Source: Butyrivibrio sp. (GTDB lineage: Bacteria > Bacillota > Clostridia > Lachnospirales > Lachnospiraceae). Taken from it: DNA of 64,000 nt. The stretch is from NCBI GenBank assembly GCA_015056655.1, contig SVFV01000001.1, positions 1 to 64,000 of the forward strand, read 5' to 3'. Of this stretch, positions 13,791-25,181 are shown in pieces; within the stretch, counting starts at the first letter, position 1; every line of letters starts with the position of its first letter. A model generated the notes under the pieces. The model did no database searches and was not told the origin of the DNA. It saw nothing but the letters and a program-made list of their open reading frames with translations. A program made the translations under genes and the position numbers.

Positions 13791-13897
13791 ATGAACGACA
13801 CGGAGAATCTGTGAATGGTTCACTTTACATGAACGACACGGATTTCTCCGCTTCGCTCCCGAAATCCTACAAACATTCGGAATCCGCGCTATCGCGC
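13791..13897. repeat. Direct repeats and hairpins in the binding-protein/permease gap
   Basis: ATGAACGACACGGA occurs twice (13791-13804 and 13829-13842), 38 bp apart. After it comes a hairpin with arms GGATTTC (13840-13846) and GAAATCC (13861-13867), whose loop holds GAGCGAAGCG on the minus strand, and then GCGC-TATC-GCGC (13886-13897). None of this is coding on either strand. Confidence 0.6.
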
Positions 13898-13916
13898 TTC
13901 TTCCTCATGTTCGTTT

Positions 13917-13971
13917 AATCAGTAAGGTCACAGGAGAAAACGCAAGCGCCTCTCCTGTGACTTTCCTGATT
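13917..13971 (-). promoter_or_regulatory. Large hairpin directly after the binding-protein stop codon
   Basis: Arms of 20 nt (13917-13936 and 13952-13971) pair with two mismatches and abut the stop codon of the binding-protein gene. On the minus strand the stem is followed by AAACGAAC rather than a T run, so it is more likely an RNA-stabilising or processing structure than a terminator. Such structures are known between malE and malF, where they give more binding protein than permease. Confidence 0.65.
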
Positions 13972-15378
13972 TTAGTCGTTCATGTCTTCCATTATGTCTG
14001 TCATGTCTTCAATGAACTCGTCTGCTGAGAACTGACCAGATACAAGGCCCTGTGTCTCAGACTGGATTCCATCGTTGAATGTTGAGTTTGTAAGTCCCCA
14101 TGTGAACTTAGTTGTTGATGTGATTGAAGGAAGTGTATCAGAAAGCTTCTTCATCATTGCAGGATACTCTGAATCAGGCTCTTTACCTGTATCGATTGCA
14201 ACGAGAGGATTGTGGCGATACATAACCTTAGCTTCGCAATACTTCTCTGTGATGAACTCAGCAACCTCAGCTGCAAGCTCTGCGTTTTCAGAATCAGGAT
14301 TTACAGCGAAACCTGAAGCACTGCCGCCGCCTGAGAATGCGCTCTTGCCTGCTTCGTATGAAGCTGCATCAGCTGCAGGATAGAACATCCAGTCAACATC
14401 ATCGCCAAGCTTTGCTGTAGCATCTTCGATGTACCACTGACCGTTGATAAACATTGCTGCCTGACCTGAAAGGAACATTTCTGAAGCCTGGTCATAGTTT
14501 GTTGTTGTAGCATCTGACTGATAGAGACCTGCTGCAACGAGCTCTTCCATCATCTTAGCTGCGTCTACATAACCCTGATCTGTGATGTTTGCGCTCTGCT
14601 CATCAAGAGCCTTGATTCCGCCCTCAGCGTAACGAGTAGCGATTACGTCATAAGCAGCTGCTGTGTTCCAGCCTTCCTGTCCGAAAAGAGCAAGAGGTGT
14701 GATGCCCGCTGCTGTAAATGTGTCGATGCAGTTCTTGAGGTCGTCATAAGTCTGAGGAACCTCAAGTCCGTTCTCCTCGAAAAGTGCCTTGTTGTAGTAC
14801 CAAAGTACATACTCCTGACCTGAGAAGGGGAATGCGTAGATGTTGCCATCCTCTGCATAAGCAAGATCCTTGTTTGCATCATAGAGCTTATCAAGGAAGC
14901 CTGTTGACTGTGCAACATCATTGAGAACCATAATCTGGTTACTCTCACGGAATGTGTTAATAAGATCTGTACTAGCCTGGTAGATATCAGGAAGCTGACC
15001 TGTAGCTGCAAGAGTCTTAAGTGTCTGTCCATCATCCTGAGCCTGTACGATAAGGTTGAGCTCTACATTAGGATATGCCTCTGCAAGCTGCTCAACTGCA
15101 TAATCATAAGGAACCTTTGTATCATCATCTGCATACTGTGTGTAGATTGAAAGTGTAACCTTCTCGCCATCAGCTGCTTCAGCCTTCTCCTCTGTAGACT
15201 CTGCTGTCTCAGCCTCAGCTGTCTCTTCAACTGACTCCTCAGCTGTAGCCTCAGATGCCTCCTCAGTAGAAGCTGCTGTGTCATTGCTTGTAGTTGTACT
15301 GCTTGATCCGCCACAACCAGCAAGAAGACCTGCTACCATTGTAAGGCTCATAAGTGTACTAAGCATTTTCTTTTTCAT
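13972..15378 (-). CDS. Sugar ABC transporter substrate-binding lipoprotein
   Basis: 468 residues. The signal peptide ends with the lipobox LLAGC (Cys22 would be lipidated). A linker rich in Ser, Thr, Glu and Ala (about residues 23-70) follows, then a family 1 extracellular solute-binding fold beginning KVTLSIYTQYADDD. Later landmarks are FPFSGQEYVLWYYNKALFEENGL and FLSGQAAMFINGQW, typical of CUT1 sugar binders. It captures a carbohydrate outside the membrane and passes it to the two permeases encoded downstream. GGAAGG lies about 11 nt before the ATG. The ligand cannot be inferred. Expression is probably high relative to the permeases because of the hairpin after the stop codon. Confidence 0.9.
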   Translation of the reverse strand: MKKKMLSTLMSLTMVAGLLAGCGGSSSTTTSNDTAASTEEASEATAEESVEETAEAETAESTEEKAEAADGEKVTLSIYTQYADDDTKVPYDYAVEQLAEAYPNVELNLIVQAQDDGQTLKTLAATGQLPDIYQASTDLINTFRESNQIMVLNDVAQSTGFLDKLYDANKDLAYAEDGNIYAFPFSGQEYVLWYYNKALFEENGLEVPQTYDDLKNCIDTFTAAGITPLALFGQEGWNTAAAYDVIATRYAEGGIKALDEQSANITDQGYVDAAKMMEELVAAGLYQSDATTTNYDQASEMFLSGQAAMFINGQWYIEDATAKLGDDVDWMFYPAADAASYEAGKSAFSGGGSASGFAVNPDSENAELAAEVAEFITEKYCEAKVMYRHNPLVAIDTGKEPDSEYPAMMKKLSDTLPSITSTTKFTWGLTNSTFNDGIQSETQGLVSGQFSADEFIEDMTDIMEDMND

Positions 15379-17783: not shown

Positions 17784-17910
17784 GAAACTCTATATTTTCA
17801 TGAAACGGTCTTAAAAAACGTCGGTTCTTATGTTGTGTATTTTACAACATTAGAACCGTTACGTTTTTTACGAAGCGAAAGCGTCCGTTGAATGAAATAT
17901 ATAGAGTTTC
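17784..17910. repeat. Structured palindromic element, copy A
   Basis: Terminal arms 17784-17801 and 17892-17910 pair with a one-base bulge. Inside, ACGG (17805-17808) can pair with CCGT (17885-17888). A long hairpin with arms near 17811-17836 and 17844-17871 has one T-T mismatch and a 2-nt bulge. After it comes GAAGCGAAAGCGTCCGT, where GCGAAAGC can form a GNRA hairpin. The second copy (25056-25181) has the same plan with different stem bases. On the minus strand the outer stem is followed by TTTTTATT, so this copy may also end pflB transcription. Confidence 0.8.
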
Positions 17911-17939
17911 AAAATATCAAAAACTTAGCTGCGAAACTA

Positions 17940-20204
17940 TTACATTGTCTCGTGGCATGTTCTGTTGATAACGTCCATCTGCTGCTCTCTTGTGAGGTCG
18001 ATGAACTTAACAGCGTAACCTGATACACGAATTGTGAAGTTAGCGTACTCAGGCTTTTCAGGATGCTCCATAGCGTCCTTAAGCTTTTCAACACCGAATA
18101 CATTTACGTTGAGGTGGTGTGCACCCTGATCGAAGTATCCGTCCATTACGTTTACAAGCTTGTCTGCGCGCTCTTCGTCGTCGTGACCAAGTGCACCAGG
18201 ATTGATTGTCTGTGTATTTGAAATACCATCAAGTGCATACTCGTAAGGAAGCTTTGCAACAGAGTTAAGTGATGCAAGGAGTCCTGACTGCTCTGCGCCG
18301 TAAGCCGGGTTAGCACCGGGAGCGAAAGGAGCGAATGCAGGTCTTCCGTCCGGGAGAGCACCTGTAGCCTTACCATAAACAACGTTTGATGTGATTGTAA
18401 GGATAGATGTTGTAGGCTCTGAATCTCTGTATGTGTGGTTCTTCTTTACCTTCTTGAGGAAAGTCTTAAGAAGCCATACAGCGATCTCATCAGCTCTCTC
18501 ATCATCATTACCATACTTAGGGAAGTCGCCTTCAATCTTGTAATCTACAACAAGACCAGACTCATCTCTTACTGTCTTAACCTTTGCATACTTGATAGCG
18601 CAAAGTGAATCAACTACGTGTGAGAAGCCTGCGATACCTGTAGCGAATGTACGACGTACATCTGTATCGATAAGAGCCATCTCAGCTGCTTCGTAGTAAT
18701 ACTTATCATGCATATACTGAATGAGGTTGAGGATGTTTACGTAAAGTCCAGCAAGCCAATCCATCATAAGATCATACTTGTGCATTACCTCATCATAGTC
18801 AAGATACTCAGATGTGATAGGAGCCATCTCAGGACCTACCTGCATGTGGTTACCCTGCTTGTCAAGGAACTTCTCATCCTTACCACCATTGATAGCGTAA
18901 AGAAGACACTTAGCAAGGTTTGCTCTAGCTCCGAAGAACTGCATCTCCTTACCTGTCTGTGTAGCTGATACGCAGCAGCAAATGCTGTAATCATCGCCCC
19001 ATACAGGACGCATAACATCATCGTTCTCATACTGAATTGAAGAAGTTGTAACAGAGATCTTAGCTGCATACTTCTTGAAGTTCTTAGGAAGCTTTGATGT
19101 GTAAAGAACTGTAAGGTTAGGCTCAGGGCTAGGTCCCATGTTCTCAAGAGTGTGAAGGAATCTGTAGTCGTTCTTTGTAACCATGTGACGACCATCCATA
19201 CCAAATCCACCAACCTCAAGTGTAGCCCATACAGGGTCACCAGAGAACAGCTGATTGTAGCTGGGGATACGAGCGAACTTAACCATTCTGCACTTCATAA
19301 CGAGGTGATCGATAAGCTCCTGTGCCTCAGACTCTGTAAGTGTTCCTTCCTTAAGATCTCTCTCGATGTAAATATCAAGGAATGTAGAAACACGACCAAC
19401 TGACATAGCAGCACCGTTCTGAGTCTTGATAGCTGCAAGGTATCCAAAGTAAAGCCACTGAACAGCTTCCTTAGCGTTCTGAGCAGGCTGTGAAATATCA
19501 TAGCCATAAACTGCAGCCATTTCCTTCATTCCGCGAAGAGCTCTGATCTGCTCAGCGATCTCCTCACGCTGACGGATGATATCATCTGTCATAACTCCGC
19601 AACCGCAAAGTGCGAAATCTTCCTTCTTCTGCTCGATAAGGAAGTCTATACCATAAAGAGCAACTCTACGATAGTCGCCGACGATACGTCCACGGCCGTA
19701 TGTATCCGGAAGGCCTGTAACGATGTGGCTGTGACGAGCTGCCATCATCTCAGGTGTATAAGCATCAAAAACAGCCTGGTTGTGAGTCTTGTGATACTCT
19801 GTGAAGATCTTGTGGTACTTCTCGTTTACCTTGAAGCCATAAGTCTCAGCTGCCTGCTCAGCCATCTTAATACCACCATAAGGCATGAATGCACGCTTAA
19901 GGGGCTTGTCTGTCTGAAGACCAACAACCTTCTCAAGATCCTTCATTGACTCATCGATATAGCCAGGGCCATATGCTGTAAGACTAGAAACAACCTCTGT
20001 CTCACACTCAAGAACACCACCGTTCTCACGTTCCTTCTTCTGGAGCTCCTGTAATTTACCCCAAAGCTTGTCTGTAGCATCAGTAGCATCAGCAAGGAAG
20101 CTCTCGTCCCCATCATAGGGCTGGTAGTTATTCTGGATGAAGTCTCTTACGTTTACTTCATCTGTCCACTTGTTACCTTTGAAGCCTCTCCATTGTTCTC
20201 TCAT
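17940..20204 (-). CDS. pflB: Pyruvate formate-lyase (formate C-acetyltransferase)
   Basis: 754 residues, close to the usual 750-760. It splits pyruvate with CoA into acetyl-CoA and formate without oxygen. The catalytic cysteines lie in [14 protein letters not shown] (Cys409-411; the canonical pair plus one extra Cys), and the glycyl radical is Gly729 in [28 protein letters not shown] and the [10 protein letters not shown] segment are typical of true PFL rather than diol or choline enzymes. AGAGGAG precedes the ATG. The gene has its own promoter and an inverted repeat over the -35 region. The activase gene lies upstream and ends in a separate terminator. Structured element A follows the stop. 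Confidence 0.97.
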
Positions 20205-20227
20205 AGTATTAATTCTCCTCTGTACTT

Positions 20228-20276
20228 ATTATAAACACAATATCTTGTGGTTTGCAACATTAATCGCACAAGATAT
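20228..20276 (-). promoter_or_regulatory. pflB promoter framed by a 10-bp inverted repeat
   Basis: TATAAT (minus, 20233-20228) is preceded at 18 bp by TTGCAA (20257-20252). The perfect inverted repeat ATATCTTGTG (20240-20249) and CACAAGATAT (20267-20276) frames the -35 box with a 17-bp spacer, so a protein bound to both arms would block RNA polymerase. The regulator is unknown; a redox- or fermentation-responsive repressor is a guess from the gene's role. Confidence 0.6.
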
Positions 20277-20435
20277 ATACTTTATATAAAACAACCCGAA
20301 TGGTATTCTTACATATATTAAGAAACTTTTCAACCAAAAAAGCCAAGAAAATGGCGTTTCTGAGATTTTTTGTCAATTTTTTAACTATTTTAGGGGTTTT
20401 CACTCCCAAAATTAAAACAAATATACAAAAACGCC

Positions 20436-20493
20436 AAAAATATATACCGGTTCTCAAAAGTCAGACCAAAGTCTGTTCTTCGAAAACCGGTAT
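20436..20493 (-). terminator. Hairpin terminator downstream of pflA
   Basis: ATACCGGTT (20444-20452) pairs with AACCGGTAT (20485-20493), and an inner hairpin CAGAC-CAAA-GTCTG lies at 20462-20475. ATATATTTTTGG follows on the minus strand. The next 190 bp up to the pflB promoter are AT-rich and show no gene. Confidence 0.6.
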
Positions 20494-20496
20494 CTA

Positions 20497-21222
20497 TTAA
20501 CATCCAAGTATTTTCTTTGCGTTTTCTATTCTGTCAGCCGTAGGAGCATCAACGCCCTCCAGCTTATACTTTATTCCAAGCTCATCCCACTTGAATTTGC
20601 CAAGTGAATGATAAGGTAAAACATCAACCTTCTGAACATTAGAAAGAGTGTCGATAAACTCCCTTGTTCTATGAAGATACTCATCAACATCTGTTATACC
20701 AGGCACAAGCACATGTCTTATCCAGACAGGCTTTCCTATCTCATCAAGGTACCTGAGCATATCCAGAATGTTCTCATTTGGCTTTCCTGTGAGCTCTATG
20801 TGCTGTTCGTTATCTATGTGCTTAATATCCACCAGCAAAAGATCCGTGTCCTTCATAAGCTCATTAAATGATGAAAAGAAGGGTTCCTGTCTTGTGAAAG
20901 GCTCTCCTGCTGTATCTATGCAGGTATTTATGCCTCTCTCCTTTGCTTCATGAAAAAGCTCTTTTAAGAAATCCAGCTGCAGTAAAGGCTCGCCGCCACT
21001 TACTGTGATTCCGCCGTCCTCGCCCCAGTAGCTCTTGTAGCGCTCTGCTCTGTCCAAAAGCTCAGAAGCACTTCTAATGTCATTGCTCTCGGGATTCCAG
21101 GTGTCAGCGTTATGACAATATTTACATCTTAAATTACAGCCCTTTAAAAAAATGATAAAACGAACCCCCGGCCCATCAACAGAGCCGAAGGTTTCGATTG
21201 AATGTATTCTTCCCTGTGTCAT
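20497..21222 (-). CDS. pflA: Pyruvate formate-lyase activating enzyme
   Basis: 241-residue radical SAM enzyme. The cluster motif CNLRCKYC gives Cys29, Cys33 and Cys36 for a 4Fe-4S cluster, followed by the glycine-rich GGITVSGGEPLLQ for SAM binding. It abstracts a hydrogen from Gly729 of PflB to create the glycyl radical. The length matches PflA (about 245), without the extra ferredoxin insert of other activases. Its ATG overlaps the stop of the hypB-like gene (TAATG), so the two are translationally coupled. It is separated from pflB by a terminator and 290 bp. Confidence 0.95.
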   Translation of the reverse strand: MTQGRIHSIETFGSVDGPGVRFIIFLKGCNLRCKYCHNADTWNPESNDIRSASELLDRAERYKSYWGEDGGITVSGGEPLLQLDFLKELFHEAKERGINTCIDTAGEPFTRQEPFFSSFNELMKDTDLLLVDIKHIDNEQHIELTGKPNENILDMLRYLDEIGKPVWIRHVLVPGITDVDEYLHRTREFIDTLSNVQKVDVLPYHSLGKFKWDELGIKYKLEGVDAPTADRIENAKKILGC

Positions 21223-21887
21223 TATTTCTTCCAGTCTTCTACCTGTGCGCTAAGCCACTCTGCAAACTTGTCTACACCCTCACCTGTCTTTGCACAGATA
21301 GGAATGATCTCTGCCTTGGGATTTCTCATGTGGATGTACTCCTTGCACTTCTCAAGGTCAAAATCAAAATAAGGTGCAACGTCAATCTTGTTGATAAGAA
21401 CAACATCACAGATGCTGAACATAAGAGGATACTTAAGAGGCTTGTCATGTCCCTCAGGAACTGAAAGGATCATAGCATTCTTAGAAGCACCTGTATCAAA
21501 CTCAGCAGGGCAAACAAGGTTTCCTACGTTCTCAAGAATAGCAAGATCCACATCACCCTCTACAAGAGCGTCAAGGCCCTGTCTTGTCATATCTGCATCA
21601 AGATGGCACATTCCGCCTGTGTGGAGCTGGATAGCCTTAACACCTGTCTCCGCAATCTTCTTTGCATCAACATCAGAATCAATATCAGCTTCCATAACAC
21701 CGATCTTGTACTTATCCTTAAGTGCTGCAATTGTAGCCTTAAGTGTTGTTGTCTTTCCTGATCCAGGAGAAGACATAAGATTTAAAAGAAAAATTCCCTT
21801 ATCCTTAAGCTCGCCTCTAAGAAGGTCTGCTCTCTCATCGTTACTCTCAAATACGCTTCTTTTTAACTCAATTACTCTGGTACTCAT
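21222..21887 (-). CDS. hypB: HypB-type nickel/GTP metallochaperone
   Basis: 221 residues of the SIMIBI GTPase fold. SSPGSGKTTTL (residues 39-49) is the P-loop, EADIDSDVDAKKI follows, and GMCHLDADM and ENVGNLVCPAEFD hold the Cys/His residues that bind metal at the HypB dimer interface. NKIDVAPY is the guanine motif. HypB hands nickel to [NiFe]-hydrogenase or urease precursors. Here there is no hydrogenase, urease or other hyp gene in the window, and the gene is coupled to pflA. The N-terminal extra metal motif (CxxCGC) of E. coli HypB is absent. GGAAG precedes the ATG. The family call is firm; the client protein is unknown. Confidence 0.85.
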   Translation of the reverse strand: MSTRVIELKRSVFESNDERADLLRGELKDKGIFLLNLMSSPGSGKTTTLKATIAALKDKYKIGVMEADIDSDVDAKKIAETGVKAIQLHTGGMCHLDADMTRQGLDALVEGDVDLAILENVGNLVCPAEFDTGASKNAMILSVPEGHDKPLKYPLMFSICDVVLINKIDVAPYFDFDLEKCKEYIHMRNPKAEIIPICAKTGEGVDKFAEWLSAQVEDWKK

Positions 21888-21902
21888 GTTTACTTCCTTT
21901 CA

Positions 21903-23873
21903 TTACTTTTTCTTCTTTGCCTTATCTTTAGCCTTAGCTTTTTCCTTCTTTGCCTTGCTCTTCTTAGTCTCGGCCTCCATTGCCTCAAGGAGCGCATCCT
22001 CCTCTTCAGCCTTCTTTATGCTAACAAGTGCTGCGTGATCCTCAGCAAATGAAGGATCCAGCTCTTCCTCATCCTCCATGCCCTTCTTCATAACAGGCAG
22101 GCGATATTTTCTCTCATAAAGATCAACAGCAATCTCGAATTCCTGATTCTTCTCTTCCTTAAGATGCTCTAAATATTCGTGAGTATCAAACATACCCTCG
22201 CTGACCTCAAGGATACAAACAGCTACATTTGAACAGTGATCTGCAATACGCTCAAAATCTGTTCCAAGGTCTGAGAGGATAAATCCAAGATCAATTGTAC
22301 ATTTACCCTTACGAAGTCTGCGCACATGTCTGCGCTTTACTTCCATATTAATTCCATCAATTACTTCCTCAAGAGGTTCAACTGATCTTGCAAGTCTAAG
22401 GTCCTGATTAGCAAAAGACTGGAATGACAGCTCTACGATTTCCTTAACAGCATTGGAGAATACCTTTAGCTCTTCCTTTGCCTTAGCTGAGAATTTCTCA
22501 TTCTTCTCATTCATGATTCTGGCTGTCTGAGCTATATTAAGCGCATGGTCACTTATACGTTCAAAATCAGTAATGCAGTGAATAATGATTGAAAGTGTTC
22601 TTGAATCCTTCTCTGCAAGATGATGGTTATTTATCTGCATCAGATAAGTTCCAAGCTGATCCTCATATCTGTCAGCTCTCTCCTCGAGACGTCTGACTTC
22701 ATCAAGAACCTCAGGATCATATTTATCCAAAAGTGAGATAGCCTTCTCAAGTCCATCCTTAGCAAAGGAAGCCATGTCCATAGCCACCTGCTTACTCTGC
22801 TCAAGAGCAAAGGGAGGGTTCTTTAAGAACAAAGGATCCAGCTTTGTGATTCCAGCAGCTTCCTCTGCCTCTTCCTTTTCCTTCTCATCGATCGGAATAG
22901 TTGCGTATGCCATCTTAACAAGAAGTCCTGAGAAGGGAAGCATAAGCGGTGTTCCAACGAGATTGATCAATGTGTGAATCGAAGCTATGCCAACCATTCC
23001 AGCCTGTTCATACATGAACGGGAAATGAACAAAGGTGTGAATAGCATAGAAAACTATCATGAAGGTTCCAGCCTTTATCACATTAAAATACAAATGCATA
23101 AGTGCTGTTCTCTTACCATTTTTATTGGCACCAAGTGATGAGAGGATAGCTGTGATACATGTACCAACCTCAGCACCAACTACTACAGGAAGTGCTATGC
23201 TGTATGTGATATGTACCGAAGCAGACAACGCCTGCATTACACCGATGGTTCCCGCAGAACTCTGGATTACCATTGTGAAAAGAACACCAACCAAAAATCC
23301 AATATAAGGTCTGCTAAAGGACATAAGAATCTTCTGGAATCCCTCATTATCCTTAAGAGGTGATACAGCGTCTGACATCATGCTCATACCAAACATAAGC
23401 ACTGAAAAACCGATCAGAATCAGACCGATGTTATTCTTTTTATCACTCTTGGTGAACATGTAAAGAACAATACCGATGATAGCCAAAAATGGTGTAAATG
23501 ATGTTGGCTTCAAAAGATTAATAAGGAAATTATCACTGCTGATGGCATTTAATGAAAGCAGCCATGCAGTGAATGTTGTACCAAGGTTAGCACCAAGGAT
23601 AACATTAACAGCTTCCTTAAGTGTCATGATACCGGAATTAACAAGACCGACAACCATTACGGTTGAAGCAGATGACGACTGCACAAGAGCAGTTACGCCC
23701 ACACCGAAAAGATAAGCAATGAATGGGTGCTTGGTTACGGTTGAAAGAACCGCCTCGAGCTTACCACCTGCAGCCTTGGTCAAGCCACCACTCATTACAT
23801 TCATACCATACAAAAACAAAGCCAATCCGCCGACCAGCCCTGCAACTAGCGAAAATAAATCCATTGAATTCAT
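21903..23873 (-). CDS. Na+/phosphate cotransporter with C-terminal PhoU domain
   Basis: 656 residues. The membrane half has two inverted repeats with the Na/Pi signature QSSSA: ALVQSSSASTVMVVG (about residue 65) and MVIQSSAGTIGVMQA (about 205), with GANLGTT and GAEVGTC at matching places. The soluble half (about 340-600) has helical PhoU-like repeats (ERISDHALNIAQ, ERIADHCSNVAV). The tail is extremely Lys-rich and ends KAKKKK. It imports phosphate driven by sodium and may sense phosphate through the PhoU part. AGGAGG lies 5 nt before the ATG. The next gene, hypB, starts 15 nt after its stop, so nptA-hypB-pflA may share a transcript. Confidence 0.92.
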   Translation of the reverse strand: MNSMDLFSLVAGLVGGLALFLYGMNVMSGGLTKAAGGKLEAVLSTVTKHPFIAYLFGVGVTALVQSSSASTVMVVGLVNSGIMTLKEAVNVILGANLGTTFTAWLLSLNAISSDNFLINLLKPTSFTPFLAIIGIVLYMFTKSDKKNNIGLILIGFSVLMFGMSMMSDAVSPLKDNEGFQKILMSFSRPYIGFLVGVLFTMVIQSSAGTIGVMQALSASVHITYSIALPVVVGAEVGTCITAILSSLGANKNGKRTALMHLYFNVIKAGTFMIVFYAIHTFVHFPFMYEQAGMVGIASIHTLINLVGTPLMLPFSGLLVKMAYATIPIDEKEKEEAEEAAGITKLDPLFLKNPPFALEQSKQVAMDMASFAKDGLEKAISLLDKYDPEVLDEVRRLEERADRYEDQLGTYLMQINNHHLAEKDSRTLSIIIHCITDFERISDHALNIAQTARIMNEKNEKFSAKAKEELKVFSNAVKEIVELSFQSFANQDLRLARSVEPLEEVIDGINMEVKRRHVRRLRKGKCTIDLGFILSDLGTDFERIADHCSNVAVCILEVSEGMFDTHEYLEHLKEEKNQEFEIAVDLYERKYRLPVMKKGMEDEEELDPSFAEDHAALVSIKKAEEEDALLEAMEAETKKSKAKKEKAKAKDKAKKKK

Positions 23874-24005
23874 CCATACCTCCTACTTCTAATCCATTTA
23901 GGTATTACGTAATTTTCTCCCTCTTATCACAATATGTATGGTAACTTAAAAAAAACCAAATATCAAGTTAAGTATTATTTTCAACCTGGCAGTACCTTCA
24001 GCCCA

Positions 24006-24956
24006 TCAAAACTCTATAACCATCTTGATATACTTGCCAAATTGAGCTTTGTCGCGTGAAACACGCTCGCCGTCATGGTACTCAGTGCCATAGATATTTT
24101 CTTCTATATCTACTGTTTCACTAACTGTAAACCCAAGTTTTTCACATAACTTTATGGAAGCTACATTCTCCGCCTTAACAAAGGTTATAACTCTTGGAAA
24201 CAGTAGTATCTCTTTTCCATAGGTAAGGATAGCCTTACAAACCTCGTAGGCATATCCCTGTCTTTGATAATCCATTCCTATAAGAAAGCCAAGCTCAATA
24301 TCATCAAAGCCATTCCTTGCGCTGTAGCCGGCTCTTCCGATTATCTTCCCTGTTTCCTTCTGGATTACTGTCCAGACGCCAAAGCCCATAAGACCATATA
24401 CCTTTTCTATATAGTCCCTGGTATAACGCTTCTCATCCTCAGGGTTCTCGAATAGCCCCTCCATATACTTTGTCATCTCTGGATGCGCATAGAGCTCATA
24501 AAAAGTATCCACATCCTCCACGGTAGTCTCCCTGATAAGACACCTCTCAGTTTCCAGCACGTCCCATGGGAGCTTAGCATAACGCTGATATGCCTTGATA
24601 AATGAATCCACATCAACCTGATCTATCTCAGCAAAAACATACTTAAGCCCAGGGAAATTCTCACTTCCATTCCCCTCGTGCTGTATTCCTACAACGTATG
24701 CCCCACTATAAACCAGACACTCCGCAATCAAATCCGAATCAGTCAGAAAAAGAATATCATTCAAATTCTCTTCCTCACTATTCTCGAAAAGCTTAAGCAA
24801 AAGCGTTTCTTTACTAATGTCTTCTTTTGATGGGTATATAATGACAGCCTGAATTCCCTCTTCCTTCAGATATTCACAGGTGGAATTCACTTTTTCTCCA
24901 AACTCAGCCTCTATTTCGTTATCTAAACAAAATACTATTTTCTTTAGCACTTTCAT
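24006..24956 (-). CDS. Fusion of a HAD-like domain and a GNAT acetyltransferase
   Basis: 316 residues. The C-terminal half (from about residue 140, TERCLIRETTVEDVDTFYEL) is a RimJ/RimL-type N-acetyltransferase, with GFGVWTVIQKETGKIIGRAG, the acetyl-CoA loop DYQRQGYAYEVCKAIL, and ENVASIKLCEKLGF. The N-terminal ~135 residues (KKIVFCLDNEIEAEFG, ILFLTDSDLIAECLVYSGA) look like a worn HAD hydrolase core that has lost the usual DxDGT nucleophile motif. It probably acetylates a small amine or a protein N-terminus; the first domain may bind a ligand. The spacing between AAAGG and the ATG is very short. Nothing nearby indicates a pathway. Confidence 0.75.
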   Translation of the reverse strand: MKVLKKIVFCLDNEIEAEFGEKVNSTCEYLKEEGIQAVIIYPSKEDISKETLLLKLFENSEEENLNDILFLTDSDLIAECLVYSGAYVVGIQHEGNGSENFPGLKYVFAEIDQVDVDSFIKAYQRYAKLPWDVLETERCLIRETTVEDVDTFYELYAHPEMTKYMEGLFENPEDEKRYTRDYIEKVYGLMGFGVWTVIQKETGKIIGRAGYSARNGFDDIELGFLIGMDYQRQGYAYEVCKAILTYGKEILLFPRVITFVKAENVASIKLCEKLGFTVSETVDIEENIYGTEYHDGERVSRDKAQFGKYIKMVIEF

Positions 24957-25030
24957 ACCTTTTTCTATATCATTATTTCATTATTATTGTATAATTAATC
25001 GCAGATTTCTTCCAACGGAAATCTAATATA

Positions 25031-25059
25031 TTGACATGTAGTTTAAGCCACTATATCAA
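25031..25059 (+). promoter_or_regulatory. Possible promoter of the cyclophilin gene, just before element B
   Basis: A consensus TTGACA lies at 25031-25036, followed 15-17 bp on by the weak -10 candidates TATATC (25052) or TATCAA (25054). If used, transcription would start inside the left arm of element B and the element would form the leader of the cyclophilin mRNA. Confidence 0.4.
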
Positions 25060-25181
25060 AAGTATATATTCTGCGATGCGGCTTTTGAGCACGTCGTTAC
25101 TTAGCGCTGTTTTTTAGCGCTTAGTAACGCGACGATGCGAAACGAGCGAAAGCGTCCGTCGAGCAGAATATATACTTTTGA
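25056..25181. repeat. Structured palindromic element, copy B
   Basis: Perfect 19-bp terminal inverted repeats (25056-25074 and 25163-25181) enclose a hairpin with arms near 25092-25108 and 25116-25134, broken by one T-T mismatch and a 2-nt bulge, then GAGCGAAAGCGTCCGTCGA. Apart from the core, its bases differ from copy A, yet length (126 against 127 bp), order of parts, mismatch and bulge agree. It ends 27 bp before the cyclophilin ribosome site. Confidence 0.8.

Follow-up and report, generated by a model that had tools for sequence, protein, structure and literature searches.

Two palindromic elements of a Butyrivibrio contig are copies of a Lachnospiraceae repeat family with a conserved core and variable, pairing arms

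The window analysed is the whole stretch of 64,000 nucleotides at positions 1 to 64,000 (forward strand) of contig SVFV01000001.1 from Butyrivibrio sp. (assembly GCA_015056655.1; Lachnospiraceae), and it holds two palindromes, elements A and B. These are two copies of a Lachnospiraceae family of short palindromic repeats and not a product of chance; the repeat is mobile, and its core appears to be under selection where it sits. The explanation preferred here, given about an even chance, is a mobile repeat of the type of ERIC or of a miniature inverted-repeat transposable element (MITE), with a selected core, probably acting at the ends of genes as a hairpin that protects or terminates the transcript. 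Copies were collected with a covariance model (R1; 128 positions, 39 pairs) built from 14 copies of the same genome (G000), aligned beforehand. The elements and their helices (P1, P1b, P2, P3) were located as follows.

17784..17910, plus strand: element A, whole palindrome (model match G000:C87:17785-17912, E 1.7e-35)
17784..17801, plus strand: A, outer stem P1, left arm (letters checked, fold)
17892..17910, plus strand: A, outer stem P1, right arm (letters checked, fold)
17804..17808, plus strand: A, P1b left, AACGG, partner 17885-17889 (fold, alignments)
17885..17889, plus strand: A, P1b right, CCGTT (fold, alignments)
17812..17870, plus strand: A, long hairpin P2 with T-T mismatch 17829/17851 and 2-nt bulge 17859-17860 (fold, alignment)
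17875..17882, plus strand: A, P3 mini-hairpin GCGAAAGC with GNRA loop (letters, alignments)
25056..25181, plus strand: element B, whole palindrome (model match G000:C87:25058-25183, E 2.7e-28)
25056..25074, plus strand: B, outer stem P1, left arm (letters checked, fold)
25163..25181, plus strand: B, outer stem P1, right arm (letters checked, fold)
25078..25081, plus strand: B, P1b left, GCGG, partner 25156-25159, one G-U (alignments A1/A2)
25156..25159, plus strand: B, P1b right, CCGT (alignments A1/A2)
25084..25142, plus strand: B, long hairpin P2, ends approximate (letters, alignments)
25146..25153, plus strand: B, P3 mini-hairpin GCGAAAGC (letters, alignments)

An earlier, sequence-only reading had described A and B as nearly equal in length, with a shared core, near-perfect terminal inverted repeats and, in the inner hairpin, one T-T mismatch and one 2-nt bulge at matching places; a check of the letters bore this out. 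Set against 200 dinucleotide shuffles, folding was much stronger on both strands, with z −10.5 for A and −8.3 for B on the plus strand and −9.6 for A and −7.4 for B on the minus strand. The lowest-energy fold of element B taken on its own was unlike the three-way junction common to A and B; the junction (P1/P1b, P2, P3) is the fold supported by the alignments of many copies. The shared 14-mer GCGAAAGCGTCCGT was found at 3 places in the 4.0-Mb genome, the third being a further copy, and its backwards-read pattern at 0. With two mismatches, 20 places were obtained against 25 for the backwards-read pattern, so that most such matches are to be expected by chance; the same fold was judged by eye to surround 14 of the 20.

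R1 gave 21 strong copies in the own genome (E ≤ 3.4e-23; 14 of these had themselves been used to build the model) and 3 weak ones. Matches were present in 42 of 61 Butyrivibrio genomes (22 of 35 counting good genomes) and in 113 of 299 Lachnospiraceae genomes, the own genome included (94 of 246 counting good genomes); copy numbers per genome are lower bounds, and the copies include those of related species, so that counts are not independent. The best match was aligned and inspected for 28 of the 113 family genomes, all outside the genus. A class sample of 391 genomes, 16 of which were taken as Lachnospiraceae from list order, gave matches in ten members of the family and in G725; the latter, the sole match among the approximately 375 genomes outside the family, was discarded as a bare palindrome that lacks the core. 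Named genomes scanned for an exact pattern gave 39 stretches, in Butyrivibrio, Lachnospiraceae bacterium and Eubacterium sp. MSJ-13; B. hungatei and B. proteoclasticus are among the species with copies. Carriage by phages or plasmids was rejected (0 matches to one 82-nt query in either collection), and a single pattern match on a viral contig looks like chance, no long hairpin being present in the stretch inspected.

No named family had been recognised from the sequence, and in Rfam 15 likewise no family reaches the gathering score on either element (weak matches, on A and close to B, lay far below it). A literature search gave no report of the repeat; the supplements of PMC8040213 and PMC11109978, with hundreds of palindromic or mobile candidates, lay outside that search. 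None of six names of these bacteria was found by a term search in PMC3733652; PMC8632094 is a third survey. The repeat is apparently undescribed and may be listed, unnamed, among the candidates of PMC8040213 or PMC11109978.

The differing stem bases of A and B had been read as compensatory change, and a covariance-model search of Lachnospiraceae had been proposed; the search yielded many further copies in which covariation is strong and pairing is kept. In alignment A2 (106 matches from 98 loci; 98 distinct rows), pairing holds in 94.5% of 3738 cells (64.6% shuffled), changes on both sides occur at 39 of 39 pairs, and the covariation score is 0.724 (0.179 shuffled, at most 0.106 slid); A2 was fitted to the model, so these pairing figures lean toward structure. 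Kept double changes were already visible in 31 of 39 pairs of the first MAFFT alignment (14 copies). The P1 helix, i.e., the terminal inverted repeat, is 91.6% paired over the 98 distinct rows. Identity among the 21 strong copies of the own genome was 38% in P1, 40% in the P2 tip and 34% in the outside flanks, with Watson-Crick pairs at 89% (P1) and 98% (P2 tip; 97.6%); identity was 83% in the P2 middle and 93% in P3. Similar values came from 32 rows of 28 other genera (P2 tip 99.5% Watson-Crick). Of 96 aligned rows, 93 have a GNRA mini-hairpin as P3 (loops GAAA, GAGA, GCAA, GGGA, GGAA and GCGA), in agreement with the GNRA hairpin proposed earlier for GCGAAAGC on the plus strand; two of the remaining rows have a GNRA loop inside one extra pair and one has AAGA, and the closing pairs of P3 vary among rows. 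A conserved core (P2 middle, P3 and junction) is thereby shown to be framed by arms that are near-free in sequence and keep their pairing.

The repeat is mobile: near-identical copies lie within repeat units with different ends. In G024 (at least 56 matches), 18 aligned copies are near-identical and lie in a palindromic unit with TA at many of its ends; the units of G043 (at least 56 matches) are of two or more types, which differ in their long ends. The TA at the unit ends of both genomes was seen by eye and not in all copies. Six units of G226 (about 264 bp) have one long inverted repeat in common, and direct repeats of 8-9 nt flank 6 of 6; each of six aligned units of G097 (L181-L186) contains two different inverted element copies. 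Six copies of G327 have core and end tags in common and differ in their 36-bp arms, each of which pairs with 0-2 mismatches. In the murB-rapZ spacer (gene names, i.e., pflB, murB, rapZ, pgk, tpiA and peptidyl-prolyl isomerase, were given by sequence recognition), G030 carries 183 bp, including the element, that are missing in G001 (flanks 93-94% alike); no element was found there in 7 other species inspected, and no clear target repeat was seen. Whether this is an insertion in G030 or an exact loss in G001 depends on outgroups whose spacers are unalignable.

Some further features of these units were recorded. The G024 copies (L074-L093) have other repeated hairpins as neighbours, and some of these units seem to meet at TATA; the genome is crowded with nested MITE-like repeats. 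Within the composite units of G097, the P2 arms of one copy vary between units with compensation, and the other copy is almost constant. Conserved end tags of G327 (L195-L200, L153) stand outside the variable arms, ..GATAC.CA on the left and GTCC on the right. Flanking frames were grouped for 200 loci, and in the 25 largest groups, judged by recognition only, no linked mobilising gene was seen; those groups that could be recognised consisted of orthologous neighbourhoods, the repeat units themselves or common protein families.

Many copies occupy the same site in related species. Over 21 ortholog pairs with a model match in both members, differences amounted to 53/1836 in the core (2.9%; 1 gapped position), 435/2391 in the intergenic flanks (18.2%; 175 gapped), 140/1248 in P1 and 750/8451 in coding sequence. 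The core is thus six times less diverged than adjacent intergenic DNA and seems to be selected where it is located. In 33 ortholog pairs with overlapping species, 72 stem changes were compensated and 62 one-sided (22 G-U, 10 A-C, 22 other breaks, 8 other), with 18 other double changes. One-sided changes between orthologs point to gradual, step-by-step compensation and not to arm copying alone; arm copying (hairpin correction) as the sole cause of near-perfect arms, suggested by G327 and by L050/L051, is weakened by them. At a second site, G001 retains a remnant, and none of 7 other species inspected has a hairpin.

In G000 an element separates pgk from tpiA; G026 has one at the same site, and the same flanking frames occur at L066 and L071. 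In this neighbourhood (L028, L262, L066, L071) copies recur in several species with unlike arms; the site is perhaps very old.

Position relative to genes was scored for 168 distinct copies, a right-hand gene being called for 165. The right neighbour is antisense, with its stop codon facing the element, in 92 of 165 (median distance 30.5 nt; 73 of the 92 within 0-59 nt) and has its start codon facing in 73 of 165 (median 57 nt); the medians on the left side are 109 and 140.5 nt. Near-A runs of at least 7 beyond the left arm, i.e., a U-tract for the opposed gene, were found in 27 of 73 copies with a right gene end at less than 60 nt, in 9 of 48 copies with a near start codon and in 5 of 43 of the rest. 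A gene that we take to be pflB ends about 28 nt before element A. The same site is occupied in G029 (orthologous; 5 of 39 model pairs doubly changed), and in 28 other species a hairpin with a T-tract lies within 150 nt of the pflB stop in 24 (loose scan with no shuffle control). Element B separates two divergent genes and immediately precedes the start codon of one of them, presumably a peptidyl-prolyl isomerase gene. Elsewhere in the window (13831-13981, minus strand), Clostridiales-1 RNA (RF01699) was matched with 104 bits; it overlaps the 3' end of, and follows, a same-strand gene that is presumably sugar-binding lipoprotein-like.

The preferred explanation would work in the following way. 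The core would spread within MITE-like units, and at least two kinds of transposase would move these in trans; a copy landing beside a gene end would, as a rigid hairpin, end or protect the transcript, and copies without use would decay by deletion. Selection would keep the fold because the hairpin ends or protects the transcript at the gene end; hosts would keep the core for the compact hairpin that it makes at transcript ends or leaders. Element A would then form the pflB 3' end, a place at which an ordinary hairpin resembling a terminator is found in most relatives, and element B would sit in the leader of the peptidyl-prolyl isomerase gene. The alternatives offered by the sequence-only reading, a conserved structured RNA or a small palindromic mobile element, both drew support, from the many copies with strong covariation, the GNRA loops, the lack of an Rfam family and the signs of mobility.

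Several results weigh against a selected hairpin acting at transcript ends. The demand for a model match in both members of an ortholog pair favours conserved pairs, and 20 of the 53 core differences stem from one pair. Close relatives have a remnant or part-deleted copy at three sites and none at a fourth, which makes the element dispensable at those sites. Sense and antisense neighbours number 162 each, a balance unexpected of a simple cis-RNA. No intrinsic terminator was called at A or B by a consensus scan, whose loop limit excludes so large a hairpin; promoter-like enrichment was found on neither side of 166 copies, and an independent small-RNA gene was rejected on this ground. Wobble pairs are at about 2% (G-U 66 against A-C 56 among about 3570 cells, the loop-closing pair excluded; one recurrent C-A position supplies 14 of the 56), rare for an RNA helix, and in a crude symmetric alignment A-C outnumbered G-U (201 vs 149 in the outer stem, 31 vs 4 in P2).

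The acting form could be RNA, and the GNRA loops indicate the plus strand. Model-based counts were G-U 93 and A-C 32 in P1, G-U 42 and A-C 65 in P2/P3; a stricter symmetric outward walk gave G-U 35 and A-C 16 in P1 (p 0.011), 26 and 19 in the P2 tip. Strand asymmetry from wobble pairs is weak and method-dependent. The scarcity of wobble pairs and the Watson-Crick share of the P2 tip (97.6% in the own genome, 99.5% in other genera) would suit single-stranded DNA, a folded plus strand or a cruciform gripped by a structure-specific recombinase or transposase as attC sites or REP hairpins are, since the arms then need only pair. The balanced orientation to genes is in line with this, as are stem-end tags in a minority of 101 stems (left CA-G 17, right C-GTC 20, both 11; the hyphen marks the stem end) and inverted pairs with right ends outward (G097, L070, L131, L176, L177). 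Direct pairs occur too, however (L067, L124/L174), the G226 units resemble ordinary MITEs, and with many sites common to related species most copies there have not lately moved. The flanking-frame groups named above contained no recombinase look-alike, again by recognition. Y1_Tnp is missing from G097 and G226, which carry recent copies, and all 9 genus genomes tested that lack the element have Y1 transposases; a RAYT/REPIN origin was rejected on this ground. DNA as the acting form is a minority possibility, the most probable of the alternatives to the transcript-end hairpin.

In a mobile cassette recognised by its fold and not by its end sequence, the core would impose pairing on acquired arms, travel inside unrelated palindromes and MITEs or convert them, throughout the family, and later become a transcript-end device of the host. 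We consider this unlikely; if true, it would be new as a structure-guided mobile element whose GNRA junction is RNA-like. No better rated is a passive passenger without function, in which the core is the inside of old MITEs, folded through selection against harm or through arm copying: carriage of the core in several repeat units with different ends and the remnants or losses at 4 sites would fit, but core divergence of 2.9% beside 18.2% in adjacent DNA and the 62 one-sided stem changes seen beside 72 compensated ones in 33 ortholog pairs speak against it.

Least probable of all is a riboswitch-like, cis-regulatory leader controlling the downstream gene. It would draw on the 48 of 164 copies that precede a called start codon in sense by less than 80 nt (some few overlap it), on the GNRA loop of the plus strand, on 25 unpaired core columns that are 71-77% identical and on the pgk-tpiA element with its recurrence in G026 and its flanking frames at L066 and L071; more copies (92 of the 165 with a right neighbour), however, face a stop codon in antisense, and the flanking genes of the own genome, as far as recognised, are without a common pathway.

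The repeat joins mobility with apparent in-place selection of a fold, two traits usually apart, and offers a clean case for studying the conversion of a selfish hairpin into a transcript end of the host. This structured repeat, spread through a family of bacteria common in gut and rumen, is without an Rfam model, and the covariance model is usable for annotating Lachnospiraceae genomes.

Compared by description with known families, ERIC is the nearest by size and behaviour, NEMIS/Correia by build and REPINs by compensatory stems. ERIC is a sequence-conserved repeat, whereas here the arms are near-free and the core alone is kept; its hosts are enterobacteria and vibrios and not Lachnospiraceae, and here a three-way junction with a GNRA hairpin is found. 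According to passages of PMC2229807 and PMC10969869, ERIC is like the present repeat in being a stem-loop of about 127 bp with many intergenic, MITE-like copies, and it can affect mRNA stability by orientation, also at gene 3' ends. The same passages give Correia/NEMIS, RUP and QMITE terminal inverted repeats, TA or longer target duplications and hairpin transcripts; the G226 units are similar, but those families are defined by their ends, whereas here one core lies in units with different ends. REPIN/REP, as portrayed in part of PMC3116915, are hairpin-forming miniature repeats with compensatory stem changes and inverted doublets, as here; in REPINs the ends are conserved and the middle varies, whereas here the middle is conserved, the arms vary and there is no RAYT link. 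The MRSC-65-2 motif, as described in passages of PMC11109978, resembles the present repeat in dozens of copies per genome, a covarying long stem and classification as mobile or repeat; it differs in its single long stem, spread over diverse phyla and described with no three-way junction, from the junction family of the Lachnospiraceae.

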